Shown: one piece after another, positions 4,188 through 17,474 of the stretch
Layout of the letters: each line of letters opens with the position of its first letter
How positions within the stretch are numbered: position 1 is the first letter of the stretch
Made by a program: the position numbers and the translations under genes
Notes under the pieces: generated by a model
What the model was told of the DNA's origin: nothing
The model's input: the letters and a program-made list of their open reading frames with translations, nothing else
The model's database searches: none
Source of the DNA: Sneathiella sp.
GTDB lineage: Bacteria; Pseudomonadota; Alphaproteobacteria; Sneathiellales; Sneathiellaceae
DNA: 40,124 nucleotides
Assembly (NCBI RefSeq): GCF_029233945.1
Contig: NZ_JARGOQ010000029.1
Span: forward strand, 1 to 40,124
Reading direction: 5' to 3'

Positions 4188-4418
4188 TTAAGACTGCCAG
4201 AAAGATTTTGCAGTTTCTGATTTTGCTTCTGAGGCGGAAAGCCCCATGTCGGTTAAATATACCTTATCCAGGCCGGCAAGCTGATGCCGCATGGTTTCCC
4301 GTTCCTGCCATTGCATAATTGTTGAGGCAATAGATCCGATGATGCCGTTGCCGCTAACATGTCCATTGGCAGGTGCAAGATGTATGTTTCCGCCATTTAT
4401 ATATGATTTTGTTGCCAT
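4188..4418 (-). CDS. DUF1127 domain small protein
   Basis: Small protein of 76 residues. The C-terminal half carries the YjiS/DUF1127 pattern: a Trp-rich helix (IMQWQERETMRHQLAGL) then LTDMGLSASEA and a terminal KSFWQS. The N-terminal 30 residues are Gly/Asn-rich and probably disordered. DUF1127 proteins are small Arg-containing proteins; in alphaproteobacteria some act in phosphate and carbon metabolism or RNA turnover, and CcaF1 of Rhodobacter binds RNA and affects small-RNA processing. The start at 4418 is preceded by AAGGAATAGGAA. A strong hairpin with a C/U-rich loop follows the stop. The gene diverges from the LysR regulator at 4569, leaving about 150 AT-rich bases for promoters. Confidence 0.8.
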   Translation of the reverse strand: MATKSYINGGNIHLAPANGHVSGNGIIGSIASTIMQWQERETMRHQLAGLDKVYLTDMGLSASEAKSETAKSFWQS

Positions 4419-9204: not shown

Positions 9205-10179
9205 GTGTTGATTAAAAATCCAAAAGGTTGGGAACTCCCTGAAGCCAAGGCAACGCCGGAAGGCGTTTATTTGAACCGACGGAATATTTTGAAAGGCATG
9301 GCGGGCGCTGGACTTATTGCCTCGATTGGCTCGAATACTGCGTTTAGCGGAGCATTTGCTGCGGAAGGCCACGACCCAAGCGCAAGCCTCTATCCGGTCC
9401 CACGCAATGATCAGTATAAGGTCACGCGTGAACTAACCCCGGAAAAAATTGTCACAACCTACAATAACTTTTACGAGTTCGGTTCCCACAAGGAGATTTA
9501 CGAGGCTGCGCAAGCGCTCAAGATAAGGCCCTGGACTGTCAAGATAGATGGCATGGTTGAAAAAGAGATGGAAATCGACATTGACGATCTGCTCGCGCAA
9601 ATGCCGCTTGAAGAACGTCTTTACCGGCATCGCTGCGTTGAGGCCTGGTCGATGGTGGTGCCGTGGAGCGGGTTTCCGATGAAGGAGCTTGTCAAGCTGG
9701 CGGCGCCGACATCCGGGGCAAAATATGTCGTCATGCAGACGTTTGAGGATAAATCCGTGGCTCCGGGACAGCGGCAGTTCTGGTATCCCTGGCCCTATAC
9801 AGACGGCCTGACGATTGAAGAGGCGATGAATGATCTCACCTTCATGGTGACGGGGCTATACGGAAAACCCCTCCCGAAGCAGAATGGCTCGCCCTTAAGG
9901 CTCGCAGCGCCCTGGAAATATGGGTTTAAGCAGGTGAAATCTATCAATCGCATCTCCTTTACCGAGGAGCGGCCTGTAACCTTTTGGGAAACCTTGATTA
10001 AGAATGAGTATGGTTTTTGGGCGAATATCAATCCGGAAGTGCCTCATCCACGCTGGTCTCAGGCGAAAGAGAGAGATATCGGCACGGGCGAGAAGATACC
10101 GACCCTCCTTTACAATGGCTATGGCGAATATGTTGCCGATATCTATAAGGACATGAAAGGCGAACGCCTCTTTATGTGA
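9205..10179 (+). CDS. msrP: Protein-methionine-sulfoxide reductase catalytic subunit MsrP
   Basis: Periplasmic molybdenum-pterin enzyme that reduces methionine sulfoxide in envelope proteins, normally taking electrons from the haem membrane protein MsrQ. The product is 324 residues. A twin-arginine signal (NRRNILKG, Arg 25-26) is followed by a hydrophobic stretch to about residue 53. The molybdenum ligand Cys is C144 in RHRCVEAWSM, and PWSGFP, characteristic of the family, comes just after. I accept the GTG start at 9205 because AAGGAA stands about 9 bases upstream and the next in-frame ATG lies inside the Tat signal. No msrQ gene is next to it; the following gene encodes a ferritin-like protein instead. 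Confidence 0.93.
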   Translation: MLIKNPKGWELPEAKATPEGVYLNRRNILKGMAGAGLIASIGSNTAFSGAFAAEGHDPSASLYPVPRNDQYKVTRELTPEKIVTTYNNFYEFGSHKEIYEAAQALKIRPWTVKIDGMVEKEMEIDIDDLLAQMPLEERLYRHRCVEAWSMVVPWSGFPMKELVKLAAPTSGAKYVVMQTFEDKSVAPGQRQFWYPWPYTDGLTIEEAMNDLTFMVTGLYGKPLPKQNGSPLRLAAPWKYGFKQVKSINRISFTEERPVTFWETLIKNEYGFWANINPEVPHPRWSQAKERDIGTGEKIPTLLYNGYGEYVADIYKDMKGERLFM

Positions 10180-10266
10180 CCTTGCTTTGCGTCATCTATG
10201 CGTGAATTTTCCGTGCGTGGCAGTTTGCGAAAGCCGCCAGTTCTGCTATCAATGTGGAACGAATAA

Positions 10267-10283
10267 ACTGGAATAATTCGAAA
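10267..10283 (+). promoter_or_regulatory. Candidate Irr/iron-control-type operator before EncFtn
   Basis: The imperfect palindrome ACTGGAATAATTCGAAA contains GAA-N3-TTC. It matches about 10 of 14 fixed positions of the iron control element of the alphaproteobacterial regulator Irr (TTTAGAA-N3-TTCTAAA, from memory). It lies about 25 bases before the ferritin start codon, where a repressor or activator could act. This is inference from a short pattern. Confidence 0.3.
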
Positions 10284-10307
10284 CTACGCCAAGGAGGGCG
10301 ATGATAT

Positions 10308-10601
10308 ATGGCCAGCGAAGGATACCACGAGTCAGTCGAGGAACTTTCTGATGAAACACGGGATATGCACAGGGCTATCGTCTCCCTGATGGAGGAACTC
10401 GAGGCTGTTGACTGGTATAATCAGCGTGTTGATGCATGCAAAGATGAGGAATTGAAGAAGATCCTCGCCCATAACCGTGATGAAGAGAAGGAGCATGCCG
10501 CGATGGTGCTGGAATGGATCCGCCGAAGAGATCCGATTATGGACAAGGAGTTGAAGGATTCTCTCTTCAAGGAAGGCCCCATCGGCCATCATCATGAATA
10601 A
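10308..10601 (+). CDS. Encapsulated-ferritin (EncFtn) type protein without cargo tail
   Basis: Small ferritin-like ferroxidase of 97 residues that should assemble through paired two-helix hairpins. Helix 1 carries MEELEAVDWYNQRVDACKD and helix 2 NRDEEKEHAAMVLEWIRR. Residues E30, E32, W36, E60 and H63 line up, with an offset of two, with the ferroxidase-centre residues E32, E34, W38, E62 and H65 described for Rhodospirillum rubrum EncFtn. In that system the protein has a C-terminal extension ending in an encapsulin-targeting peptide, and the encapsulin shell gene lies next door. Here the protein stops at KEGPIGHHHE, with no targeting peptide and no encapsulin gene nearby. A strong AAGGAGGG precedes the ATG. 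The His-rich end may bind metal. Confidence 0.85.
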   Translation: MASEGYHESVEELSDETRDMHRAIVSLMEELEAVDWYNQRVDACKDEELKKILAHNRDEEKEHAAMVLEWIRRRDPIMDKELKDSLFKEGPIGHHHE

Positions 10602-10616
10602 CCGACCATAACAGAC

Positions 10617-10740
10617 AAAAAAATGCCGGCCATATGAATGGCCGGCAAGTCTGACAGGAGGTGCATCTCGAATGGAGATGCAAAGGAACAAGTCGGATAG
10701 GGAGGAATCCTCTGCTCCTTGCCGGAAAGCCGGCACCTGA
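10617..10740 (-). ncRNA. Anti-SD-loop small RNA, copy A (cuckoo/alpha-r14-like)
   Basis: Read on the minus strand. A 5' hairpin GCCGG-CUUU-CCGGC comes first, then an imperfect stem presenting UCCUCCC in its loop, then a UGCAUCUC-type stem. A linker with CCUGUCAGACUU follows, and the RNA ends in a 9-bp GC terminator (TGCCGGCCA with TGGCCGGCA, 10624-10647) plus seven T. The anti-Shine-Dalgarno loop and the GC-rich terminator match the architecture of the alphaproteobacterial cuckoo RNAs (alpha-r14, Rhodobacter CcsR). The 5' end is approximate. Confidence 0.65.
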
Positions 10741-10840
10741 ATGATATATATTTCAATATCACTCTTTTGTTATATTGGGTTTTGTCCGCGCTTGTGAATA
10801 TGTAAACCTACATATCGGGCAAGTTTTTCAAATCTGTTGC

Positions 10841-10988
10841 AAAAAAAAGACCGGCCTCAATGAAGAGGCCGGCTTAGTCTAACAGGGAGGTATTGCCTTG
10901 CGGCAATACAGATTACATGTGATTGGGAGGAATACATGCAATCGATATCAGCAGGGAGCTGATATTAGTAAATGCTGCAATGCAACAT
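10841..10988 (-). ncRNA. Anti-SD-loop small RNA, copy B (cuckoo/alpha-r14-like)
   Basis: On the minus strand a TATAAT box at 10995-11000 suggests a start near 10988. Four hairpins follow in order: an AAUG..CAUU stem; AUAUCAGC-UCCCU-GCUGAUAU; a GAUUGCAUGU/ACAUGUAAUC stem with CCUCCC in its loop; and GUAUUGCC/GGCAAUAC. Then comes the shared linker ACCUCCCUGUUAGACU and a terminator CCGGCCTC/GAGGCCGG (10851-10872) with eight T. It shares the linker and terminator design with copies A and C, but the stems differ in sequence while the loops are kept. Confidence 0.65.
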
Positions 10989-11128
10989 TCATGCATTATA
11001 GATAGCCAATATCTACCATGGTTTCCACCGATAATATTGCAGTGCACCTATGCAAAAAACGCATATCTCTGAAAATCCCTATAAATCATGAAAAGCATTT
11101 GCAGGACTTATAGGGGTATATTTTATTG

Positions 11129-11260
11129 GAAAAAAATGCCGGCCAAATGAATGGCCGGCAAGTCTAACAGGGAGGTACTATGTCAAGAAGACATAGGATT
11201 GCAAAAATCAGGGAGGAGATTTTGCAATATCACGCGGGCTCAACGCCCTTGTGAAGACGA
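11129..11260 (-). ncRNA. Anti-SD-loop small RNA, copy C (cuckoo/alpha-r14-like)
   Basis: On the minus strand an 11-bp stem ATTGCAAAATC/GATTTTTGCAAT holds the loop UCCUCCCU (about 11199-11229). A CTATGTC/GACATAG hairpin follows (11178-11196), then the linker ACCUCCCUGUUAGACUU. The 9-bp terminator TGCCGGCCA/TGGCCGGCA (11137-11160) ends in seven T. The terminator differs from that of copy A only in the loop, so these two look like recent duplicates. The 5' end is approximate. Confidence 0.68.
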
Positions 11261-11295
11261 TTATTGCGTCGCAACATCGCCTGCGGTCTTTCTAT

Positions 11296-11341
11296 AAAAA
11301 TTGGTAGCGTTAGAAAAGATCAATCTCGTCAATGCTACCAT
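11296..11341 (-). terminator. Probable terminator of the LysR gene
   Basis: TGGTAGCATT pairs with AACGCTACCA (one G-U pair) over a loop of about 20 bases, followed by ATTTTTAT on the minus strand. It begins about 30 bases after the LysR stop and separates that gene from the small-RNA array. Confidence 0.55.
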
Positions 11342-11372
11342 GCATCGCCTGCATGGCTCTGCCGGAAGTGCA

Positions 11373-12263
11373 CTAAAATGCGTACTCTTTGATTTTCTGG
11401 ATTAGAAAATCACGAAAAATTGTCACTCGCTTGGATTTACGCAATTCTTCCGGATAGACGTAGTAAGTATCGAAAGTCGGTCCCCCTAATTCGGGCAGAA
11501 TACGAATGATATTGGTGTGACCATGGACAATATAGTCCGGCAGGCTGGCGATTCCGAGGCCGCTTTGTACCGCGAGCAGCAACCCATAGACATTATTGAC
11601 CTTGAAAACCGGCTCTTTCGTGCGGCCTGCCTTGACCAGATCCTTCAGTAGCCAGTTCAAATTCGCGATATTGGTCGGCGCTTCATCACCATAGGTAATA
11701 AGGTTGCTATCCAGGATATCGTCCAAATGCGTGGGCGTGCCATGCTTCTTCAGAAAATCCGGAGAGGCGTAGACATGGTGGTTCACGGTCATCAATTTGC
11801 GCTGGATCAGATCGGGCTGAACTGGCGCGCGTAACCGAATGGCAATGTCGGCTTCGCGCATGCCAAGGTCAAGCTCACGATCGGCAAGGATCAGGTTGAC
11901 AGTAATCTCCGGGTAAAGCTCGATGAACTCCCTTATTCGCGGTGTCAGCCAGTTGGCGCCAAGACCGACTGTCGCGGTTACCCTGAGCTCCCCGGATGGC
12001 TTTTCATGAGCATCCATCAACTGGGCTTCCGTCATGGCGAGTTTTGCGAAAACCTCATGCGCTGTCTGGAAAAGCAGCTCCCCCTGCTCGGTCAGCAGAA
12101 GGCCGCGAGCATGGCGGTGGAAGAGGGCGACCTGCAGGCTTTCCTCAAGCGCGCTGACCTGACGGCTGACGGCGGATTGGCTAAGATGCAAGGTTTCACC
12201 GGCGCGTGTAAAACTGCCAGCCTCGGCTACCGCATGGAAAATGCGTAATTTGTCCCAATCCAT
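11373..12263 (-). CDS. LysR-family transcriptional regulator next to trxB
   Basis: Regulator of 296 residues. It has a winged helix-turn-helix at 1-60 (MDWDKLRIFHAVAEAGSFTRA, with SQSAVSRQVSALEESL as recognition helix) and a LysR effector domain over about 88-290 (GELRVTATVGLGANW, then DIAIRLRAP). It lies 54 bases downstream of trxB on the same strand, so co-transcription is likely. That linkage hints at redox-related control, but no effector can be read from sequence. LysR proteins usually control a divergent neighbour; here nothing diverges, since the small-RNA array lies beyond its 3' end. Confidence 0.88.
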   Translation of the reverse strand: MDWDKLRIFHAVAEAGSFTRAGETLHLSQSAVSRQVSALEESLQVALFHRHARGLLLTEQGELLFQTAHEVFAKLAMTEAQLMDAHEKPSGELRVTATVGLGANWLTPRIREFIELYPEITVNLILADRELDLGMREADIAIRLRAPVQPDLIQRKLMTVNHHVYASPDFLKKHGTPTHLDDILDSNLITYGDEAPTNIANLNWLLKDLVKAGRTKEPVFKVNNVYGLLLAVQSGLGIASLPDYIVHGHTNIIRILPELGGPTFDTYYVYPEELRKSKRVTIFRDFLIQKIKEYAF

Positions 12264-12317: not shown

Positions 12318-13286
12318 CTATTCGGCGGCTTCTGCCGAGGTGTTTTCATTTTCTGCAATGTATTTCTCGGCTTCCAGCGCCGCCATGCAGCCGGTGCCTG
12401 CGGCGGTAACGGCCTGGCGGTATATTTTGTCCTGAACGTCGCCACAGGCAAAAATACCGGGAATATTTGTCGCGGTGGAATCAGGGGCCGTAATCAGATA
12501 GCCTTCCCCATCCATATCGAGTTTGCCTTTGAACAAATCCGTGTTCGGGGAGTGACCGATGGCGATAAAGACGCCATGGACGGAAACATCCTGCGTTTCG
12601 CCAGTTTTGACGTTGCGAAGGCGTGCCCCGGTGACACCAAAGGGCTCCTCTGCGCCCAGAATTTCATCCAAGGCGTGATCCCAGATAATCTCAATCTTCG
12701 GGTTCTTCTTTAGCCGCTCGACAAGAATTTTCTCCGCGCGCAGCTCATCCCGGCGATGAACCAATGTTACCTTGTCGGCATGGTTGGTGAGATAGATGGC
12801 CTCTTCCACCGCCGTGTTGCCACCGCCAATGACCATGACCTCCTTACCGCGATAGAAAAAACCGTCGCAGGTTGCGCAGGCGGAAACGCCAAAACCCATG
12901 TATTTCTGCTCTGTCGGCAACCCAAGCCATTTCGCCGCGGCTCCGGTCGCGATGACAACCGATTGGGCGATATATTTAGTGCCCGAATCCGCCGTTGCCA
13001 CAAACGGGCGCTGATTGACGTCCAAATCGACAATATAATCGTTGAAAATGCGGGTGCCGACGTTGCGGGCTTGTGCCTCCATCTGCTCCATCAGCCATGG
13101 GCCTTGAATAGTGTCTGCAAAGCCCGGATAATTTTCCACATCGGTCGTGATCGTCAGCTGGCCACCGGGTTGTATCCCATGGACGAGAATCGGATCAAGG
13201 GACGCGCGGGCCGCATATATTGCGGCGGTATCCCCGGCCGGGCCGGAGCCAATGATAAGAACATCTGTATGATGAATTTCCGTCAT
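12318..13286 (-). CDS. trxB: Thioredoxin-disulfide reductase
   Basis: NADPH-dependent FAD flavoprotein that reduces thioredoxin in the cytoplasm. The product is 322 residues, the usual length for the low-molecular-weight type. The FAD dinucleotide motif GSGPAG is at 13-18, the redox-active CATC at 137-140 (SACATCDGFFYRG), the NADPH motif GGGNTA at 154-159, and the second FAD motif is in GIFACGDVQDKIYRQA near 280-300. The last 20 or so residues are Glu/Ala-rich. It lies between the ELM1-family gene upstream (118 bases) and the LysR gene downstream (54 bases), all on the minus strand. Confidence 0.97.
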   Translation of the reverse strand: MTEIHHTDVLIIGSGPAGDTAAIYAARASLDPILVHGIQPGGQLTITTDVENYPGFADTIQGPWLMEQMEAQARNVGTRIFNDYIVDLDVNQRPFVATADSGTKYIAQSVVIATGAAAKWLGLPTEQKYMGFGVSACATCDGFFYRGKEVMVIGGGNTAVEEAIYLTNHADKVTLVHRRDELRAEKILVERLKKNPKIEIIWDHALDEILGAEEPFGVTGARLRNVKTGETQDVSVHGVFIAIGHSPNTDLFKGKLDMDGEGYLITAPDSTATNIPGIFACGDVQDKIYRQAVTAAGTGCMAALEAEKYIAENENTSAEAAE

Positions 13287-17145: not shown

Positions 17146-17255
17146 ATGCCTCAACCTGTCAGACTTGCTTCTGATGGGCCAGATTAAAACTCCGAAATCG
17201 CCTAGGAGTCAAGAGGCTATGTTACAATTTTATGAAACATTGATGGGGTTTAGCC

Positions 17256-17345
17256 AAAAAAAGAGCCGCCCTTAAAAAAGGCGGCCCAAGTCAACAGGGA
17301 GGCGTCATAAAGACTGGAATAGGGATTCCAACCTTAAGTAACCCA
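17256..17345 (-). ncRNA. Anti-SD small RNA, fourth dispersed copy D
   Basis: On the minus strand: hairpin TGGAAT-CCCT-ATTCCA (17315-17330), linker GCCUCCCUGUUGACUUGG, then a terminator stem GCCGCC/GGCGGC with an A/T-rich loop (17264-17287) and seven T. The linker CUCCCUGUU-GACUU and the layout match copies A-C 6 kb away, but the first loop is shortened to CCCU. The rest of the 390-base gap (17083-17474) holds the terminator at 17110 and an AT-rich stretch at 17345-17474, presumably its promoter. Confidence 0.55.
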
Positions 17346-17474
17346 AAGCGGGCTACAGCATTCAACTTAACCATCAATTCTTAAATTACAATTAACGAAT
17401 ATGAAGTTTTGTGAATTTTTTCGCAATTTTCCCAATGATTCGCTTTCGCGGAATTATGGACAATGCAATAAACG

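Follow-up and report, generated by a model that had tools for sequence, protein, structure and literature searches.

The window, which is the whole stretch of 40,124 nucleotides of Sneathiella sp. DNA that was analysed, carries three tandem small RNA (sRNA) units on the minus strand at 10617–11280, between a ferritin gene and a gene for a LysR-type regulator. The LysR gene lies upstream of this array and is codirectional with it, trxB lies upstream of the LysR gene in turn, and the ferritin gene is convergent with the array. The features are given below in the direction of the minus strand.

12318–13286, minus strand: trxB, thioredoxin reductase (NCBIfam TIGR01292, 410.1 bits against a cut-off of 343.45)
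11373–12263, minus strand: LysR-type regulator, assigned as LsrB/VtlR orthologue (Pfam; PDB 9hh1, E 1e-100)
11130–11280, minus strand: sRNA unit 3, closest to lsrB (folding, terminator scan, motif scan, Rfam)
11259–11278, minus strand: 5′ hairpin of unit 3
11211–11216, minus strand: CCTCCC of unit 3 hairpin A, with CUCCUCCC loop
11178–11196, minus strand: hairpin B of unit 3
11170–11175, minus strand: CCTCCC of the unpaired CCUCCCUGUUAGACUU of unit 3
11137–11160, minus strand: terminator of unit 3, with T-tract at 11130–11136
11041–11053, minus strand: match to the VtlR/LsrB box, GCATAGGTGCACT, upstream of unit 2 (sequence match)
10995–11000, minus strand: TATAAT, putative −10 element of unit 2 (sequence and alignment)
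10842–10990, minus strand: sRNA unit 2 (folding, terminator scan, motif scan, alignment)
10971–10989, minus strand: 5′ hairpin of unit 2
10945–10965, minus strand: extra hairpin of unit 2, with CUCCCU loop
10911–10943, minus strand: hairpin A of unit 2, with UUCCUCCC loop
10890–10909, minus strand: hairpin B of unit 2
10885–10890, minus strand: CCTCCC of the unit 2 linker
10850–10873, minus strand: terminator of unit 2
10617–10740, minus strand: sRNA unit 1 (folding, terminator scan, motif scan)
10720–10735, minus strand: short upstream hairpin of unit 1
10700–10705, minus strand: CCTCCC of unit 1 hairpin A, with UUCCUCCC loop
After hairpin A of unit 1, minus strand: hairpin B, then the linker CCUCCUGUCAGACUU
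10624–10647, minus strand: terminator of unit 1, with T-tract at 10617–10623
10308–10601, plus strand: EncFtn-like (encapsulated) ferritin (Pfam PF22277, NCBIfam TIGR04535)

Each unit is built, from 5′ to 3′, of a hairpin A with a UCCUCCC loop, a short hairpin B, an unpaired linker and a GC-rich terminator closed by a T-tract, and units 2 and 3 carry an additional 5′ hairpin of the form AUGUUGC-NNN-GCA. The linker has the general unpaired form CCUCC(C)UGUYAGACU and reads CCUCCCUGUUAGACU in the units and CCUCCUGUCAGACU in unit 1, where CCUCC stands in place of the CCUCCC of the other units. The three minus-strand units and their terminators, proposed in a preliminary description of this DNA, are thereby confirmed; its single anti-Shine-Dalgarno (anti-SD) hairpin loop per unit holds insofar as each unit has the UCCUCCC loop, and falls short in that every unit has at least two anti-SD sites, the loop of hairpin A and the unpaired linker. 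Unit 2 has a third candidate site, CUCCCU, in the loop of its extra hairpin. Judged from the candidate 5′ hairpins and the TATAAT, the 5′ ends of units 2 and 3 may lie close to 10990 and 11280, respectively, which would give lengths of about 145–150 nt.

The covariance model R1, which was built from 14 units with all three units of the array among them, matches unit 3 at 11130–11231 (111.5 bits), unit 2 at 10842–10945 (92.2 bits) and unit 1 at 10617–10720 (82.6 bits), scores on which that membership bears. Five terminator-like sites are found in 10200–11500, against 1.0 expected in shuffles; four are on the minus strand, two of them overlapping, and one is on the plus strand. The motif CCTCCCTGTYAGACT, with up to three mismatches, has six matches in the window, four of them in the array, compared with 1.03 expected, and 0 of 100 shuffles reach six. 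CCTCCC alone is not enriched in the window (31 against 24.3 expected), so the evidence lies in the arrangement of parts and not in the hexamer. Folding z-scores are −6.95, −9.15 and −6.66 for the three units and −0.83 and −1.93 for the two spacers. At gathering scores, Rfam yields only a tRNA in the window.

The array and its flanking genes also occur in Sneathiella chungangensis (L009), in a Sneathiella MAG (L059) and in two further MAGs (L008 and L047), the last of which has two units and ends its contig there. In the array's own genome R1 finds the three units and one further site at 17256–17335, and among 60 relatives, own genome included, 42 match at E 0.1, including 24 of 24 genus genomes. 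One of these (G010, 65% complete) has a single weak match of 28.6 bits; the other 23 genus loci hold three units in 21 cases and two units in two cases, with one of the two-unit loci at a contig start and L111 having one unit partly made of N. In an alignment of 66 units, 65 of them distinct, pairing holds in 94.1% of cells, two-sided changes occur in 20 of the 21 pairs, and cells with two-sided change number 370 against 110.6 in shuffles, a level reached by 0 of 500 shuffles; the alignment was fitted to the model structure and the sequences are related, both of which favour the covariation figure, though hardly to that extent. Sliding the partners lowers pairing from 94.1% to 25–50% in the same units, and hairpins A and B have two-sided changes in 12 of their 12 pairs. 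The fold of the units is under selection, and the view that stems differ while loops are kept, that stems covary in relatives and that a tandem anti-SD triplet with selected RNA structure lies here is borne out by these 66 units. In a tree of 68 units, which has few columns and many open forks, the 23 genus copies of the middle unit group together (98/98), which makes it probable that this unit had separated before diversification of the genus; the first and third units split into two species groups.

The best solved relative of the LysR protein is PDB 9hh1 (E 1e-100), the LsrB of A. tumefaciens (PMC11975290), and the protein is 52% identical to Agrobacterium LsrB, which identifies it by comparison as an orthologue of LsrB/VtlR. 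At 20 of the 22 other genus loci it adjoins the array, and the two loci where it is not seen are at contig starts. Ferritin adjoins the array in 10 of 23 genus loci, own locus counted, and is absent there in 13 of the 22 others. The constant partner of the array is the upstream LysR gene, and ferritin is incidental; the iron-storage neighbour gives no hint of function, as it is missing from the side of the array in 13 of 23 genus loci that keep the array. A gene with a molybdopterin oxidoreductase domain (window 9205–10179, plus strand) stands near the array in all 22 other genus loci and, in other families, close to lsrB at several loci; together with trxB and lsrB it looks like a redox gene neighbourhood.

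Outside the genus, related RNAs recur at the same position, next to lsrB, across many families of alphaproteobacteria. The LysR protein, searched in 385 alphaproteobacterial genomes, has matches in 213 at E 1e-75, and the 25 loci outside the genus that were best by LsrB protein alone, some of them close relatives of each other, served as test loci for R1. The model matches 23 of these 25 at E ≤1 (21 below 1e-4, two at 0.012 and 0.025), and finds nothing at L144 and L150. All 25 R1 matches are in sense orientation and lie downstream of the LysR stop, with start points 127–318 nt beyond it in 22 cases. A second model, R2, trained on genus and family units only, matches 162 of the 385 genomes at E 0.01, five of them in the genus. 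Among the matches listed (149 for LsrB; R2 to E 7.2e-5; extra genus entries not counted), the 94 R2 matches outside the genus in genomes with a listed LsrB comprise 61, in 60 genomes, within 1.5 kb downstream on the same strand, 13 at 1.7–5.7 kb and 20 elsewhere in the genome; 40 more, in genomes with no listed LsrB, were set aside.

The core common to many of these lsrB-linked RNAs is CGUCUCCCAGACG followed by CCUCCCUG. The CGUCUCCCAGACG hairpin, which has a CUCCCA loop, occurs at 17 of the 25 loci chosen by protein, at 11 of another 17 stretches (13 chosen for an R2 match, four with lsrB and no match), and 0 times in 80 ferritin loci (0.92 Mb, both strands). Neither a model match nor the core was found in four genomes with lsrB (G027, G093, G122 and G114). 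At six loci (L183–L186, L144 and L150) lsrB is kept with no recognisable sRNA of the array kind after it. Upstream of lsrB-linked RNAs elsewhere, as in units 2 and 3, a GATGTTGC-NNN-GCAR element occurs in five of the 25 and four of the 17 loci (L194, L195, L199, L202, L126–L128, L132 and L135); it may act in the RNA, as a 5′ hairpin, or in the DNA, as a palindrome to which a regulator binds.

AbcR sRNAs, which are Hfq-bound and repress ABC-transporter mRNAs, have been studied in Rhizobiaceae and Brucella in connection with nutrient uptake and host association. The Rfam family ar15 (RF02345), which we take to be AbcR in agreement with its matches adjoining lsrB in S. meliloti, was run on three Rhizobiaceae loci as a positive control: in S. 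meliloti (L176), Rhizobium leguminosarum (L177) and Shinella (L178), lsrB is followed by two ar15 matches of 97–127 bits, with trxB annotated upstream of lsrB in L176 and L177 and no annotation for L178. The L176 record (PLSDB CP090106.1) is named as S. meliloti Ak57 plasmid pSymB; because it is 3.7 Mb long and carries trxB-lsrB with two ar15 matches, it may be the chromosome under a wrong name. The gene order in A. tumefaciens is trxB-vtlR-abcR1-abcR2 (PMC7486931). In S. meliloti, AbcR1/2 stand in tandem adjoining lsrB, have anti-SD sites in the 5′ hairpin loop and between the hairpins, and are driven by LsrB (AbcR1) and RpoH1 (AbcR2) (PMC8844928).

The array occupies the same place, downstream of trxB-lsrB/vtlR, in tandem and on the same strand, with one anti-SD site of CUCCUCCC type in a hairpin loop, another that is unpaired and a match to the LsrB/VtlR box upstream of one copy. 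Additionally, the CUCCCA loop, which is frequent among lsrB-linked RNAs of other genera, is the same as AbcR motif M1 (PMC5461406). The array differs in having three units where AbcR has two, in placing its second site between hairpin B and the terminator rather than between hairpins 1 and 2, and in the sequence of that site, CCUCCCUGUYAGACU as against UUCCCCUC in AbcR; overall similarity of sequence and structure is weak. No ar15 match is listed up to E 10 in 10200–11400; ar15 shares a clan with suhB, and of overlapping matches within a clan the best is kept, but no left-out match was reported. RF02345 has no match in the array's own genome, none in 115 genomes, and none over the cut-off in 385; ten weak matches in the 385 were treated as noise, since a below-cut-off match also appears in one control genome, a Bacteroides. 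Conversely, R2 finds four of the six Rhizobiaceae ar15 copies (15.9, 13.9, 13.2 and 9.8 bits; E 0.075–1.7), and all four of its matches in 35 kb of these loci land on such copies; against the whole 3.7 Mb S. meliloti record, under stricter filters, it gives one match, at E 7 and not at AbcR. As the ar15 model failed and R2 barely matches AbcR, the array is, on the sequence evidence, a positional counterpart of AbcR and not a proven member, with a weak sequence link to the Rhizobiaceae RNAs; by analogy, it probably works like AbcR.

The VtlR box has been published as GCAT-N3-TG-N3-T (PMC7486931). Its matches in the window stand at chance level by number (seven against 6.94 expected), so that a single match proves nothing and only conserved position counts. 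In 22 of the 23 genus loci the box precedes hairpin A of the middle unit by 107–115 nt, and in the remaining one by 123/132 nt. A search in one further genus of the family (L114) places it 110 nt upstream of the first unit. Units 1 and 3 in the genus loci mostly lack it, which would fit a split control of the kind known for AbcR1 and AbcR2. In loci outside the genus, an exact box occurs within 900 nt after lsrB in 7 of 25, six of the seven in the first 250 nt, compared with 1.6% of letter-shuffled 300-nt stretches; each of the three Rhizobiaceae loci has one box after lsrB, ahead of the first AbcR copy. A sigma-70 scan of the array region gave no convincing promoter for any unit (one site against 2.2 expected), and the TATAAT of unit 2 is absent from its output.

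Several other readings of the array were weighed. The units could be a series of terminators, or an element that bounds the lysR transcript at its 3′ side, and not sRNA genes, given that a strong terminator ends each unit and that one plus-strand R1 match and some weak matches elsewhere cover little beyond the terminator; yet a terminator requires neither the covariation of hairpins A and B nor the keeping of the anti-SD loops, and this reading is extremely improbable. An array serving iron storage, either regulating the adjacent EncFtn ferritin or co-regulated with it, is scarcely more credible: besides adjacency, the ferritin ribosome-binding site contains AAGGAGGG, which could pair with the CCUCC sites, but the gene is convergent and missing at the 13 array-keeping loci noted above. 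The cuckoo/alpha-r14/CcsR family is the one to which the preliminary description had assigned the units. CcsR/CIN1 RNAs are characterised by co-transcription with a DUF1127 gene, and CcsR1–4 stand four in a row. The alpha-r14 signature consists of three hairpins with CCUCCUCCC in their unpaired part, and the NfeR1 promoter is among those bound by LsrB (PMC10746234). The array resembles these RNAs in its tandem copies, its anti-SD motifs in loops on variable stems, the three anti-SD sites of unit 2 and a probable control by LsrB, which also controls NfeR1. However, CCUCCUCCC is absent from the array, whose longest form is CUCCUCCC, in unit 3 only; the loop motif is confined to a single hairpin in units 1 and 3 and to two in unit 2, Rfam lists no ar14 match for the array region at E 10 or better, and the place is that of AbcR. 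DUF1127 has two matches in the genome on another contig and one borderline match in the window (4224–4331, minus strand, 23.7 bits against a cut-off of 23.3, an 80-aa open frame). None of the genome's matches adjoins the array, no DUF1127 operon is seen there, and the remark that the array lies away from such a gene is correct, with the nearest candidate about 6.3 kb off. Membership of the cuckoo/alpha-r14 (NfeR1) or CcsR family was therefore not upheld and is improbable.

SorX (RF02784) is the best Rfam match of each unit (E 1e-9, 7e-9 and 9e-6), at 46.1, 43.2 and 32.7 bits against a gathering cut-off of 46.6, and it also matches 18 of 27 lsrB-linked stretches with 26–43 bits (7 of the 10 sampled from the 25 lsrB loci and 11 of the 17 sampled from 20 further stretches). 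SorX itself arises by RNase E processing of the ompR-1 3′ UTR in Rhodobacter (PMC8625941). The units might accordingly be SorX-type RNAs cut by RNase E from the lsrB 3′ UTR, with no promoters of their own, and the same layout of hairpin, ACCUCCCUGUU linker and terminator, together with the lack of any minus-strand terminator found between the lysR stop and unit 3, agrees with such an origin. Against it, every match of the units is below the Rfam cut-off, and each unit has its own terminator, so that units 2 and 1 would require either read-through or a start site of their own; the box and the TATAAT of unit 2 also keep their positions. This origin is conceivable but rather doubtful. SorX differs from the units in its parent transcript, and the Rfam model (73 positions) omits hairpin A and the 5′ hairpin. 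The suhB model (RF00519, MmgR/alpha-r8), which belongs with ar15 to one Rfam clan (CL00108), is weak on the units (30.2, 24.7 and 23.3 bits, cut-off 41), and a stronger MmgR candidate elsewhere in the window, at 17249–17321 with 35.6 bits, sets the array apart from MmgR. This MmgR/alpha-r8-like sRNA candidate (17249–17402, minus strand) has CCUCCCUGUUGACU and a terminator and also matches BjrC1505 with 41.7 bits (cut-off 50); weak model matches about 6–9 kb from the array recur in congeners.

The reading favoured here, and held with good confidence, is that the array represents, in Sneathiella, the sRNA locus located after lsrB (vtlR) in alphaproteobacteria, with an expansion to three paralogues that would act as LsrB-controlled anti-SD translational repressors. 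AbcR1/2 and NfeR1 use their anti-SD sites to pair at ribosome-binding sites and so block translation (PMC8844928, PMC10746234). Because the units carry sites of this kind two or three times, the same action is the natural reading, and a role as translational repressors under LsrB is likely by analogy. Each unit would be transcribed from the minus strand and ended by its own terminator, offering the UCCUCCC of hairpin A, the CCUCC(C) of the linker and, in unit 2, CUCCCU. These two or three sites would pair with GGGAGG(A) ribosome-binding sites and so block translation. Unit 2 is probably activated by LsrB via the box that precedes its hairpin A by about 110 bp, whereas units 1 and 3 may have diverged promoters, or unit 3 may be cut from the lsrB 3′ UTR.

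Candidate target sites of the form GGGAGGA-N4-9-ATG number 74 in the genome, against 11 for the reversed pattern. The 70 of these 74 places that were fetched (the array and three others were left out) gave 34 frames of at least 100 aa, and the best 25 of 53 families include four DctP members, one NMT1, two ABC_tran and one BPD_transp_1. A control set built on AAGGAGA, in which the 70 places fetched out of 98 gave 39 frames of at least 100 aa, includes, in the best 25 of 51 families, one each of DctP, SBP_bac_5, Bmp, Peripla_BP_5 and Peripla_BP_6. By counts alone the difference is small, with no clear enrichment.

A wider proposal, put forward tentatively and at slightly less than even probability, is that an alphaproteobacterial lsrB generally has its own anti-SD sRNA behind it, with a near-invariant core of CGUCUCCCAGACG hairpin, CCUCCCUG and terminator. 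The regulator–sRNA pair would then be an ancestral redox module with no Rfam family. The AbcR pair of Rhizobiaceae would descend from it as a derived branch, and the triplet of Sneathiella would be an expansion of its own, with promoter control split among paralogues. Searches of open-access PMC literature by title and abstract start found no report of lsrB-linked sRNAs outside Hyphomicrobiales, an absence that is weak evidence, and open-access PMC literature likewise yielded no report on small RNAs of Sneathiella; papers listed for the linker sequence have titles on other subjects, and in the accessible text of an Azospirillum sRNA study, AbcR appears in the reference list only (PMC7685610).

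The presence of related sRNAs at the same lsrB position in many alphaproteobacteria suggests that the rhizobial circuit may be older and wider than thought. If the lsrB–sRNA pair is ancestral to the class, its first function would have been in free-living bacteria, and redox-sensing LsrB would have controlled metabolism via an anti-SD sRNA throughout. The conserved core supplies the search model that is missing from Rfam, and the Sneathiella triplet offers a natural test of how work is divided among duplicated sRNAs.
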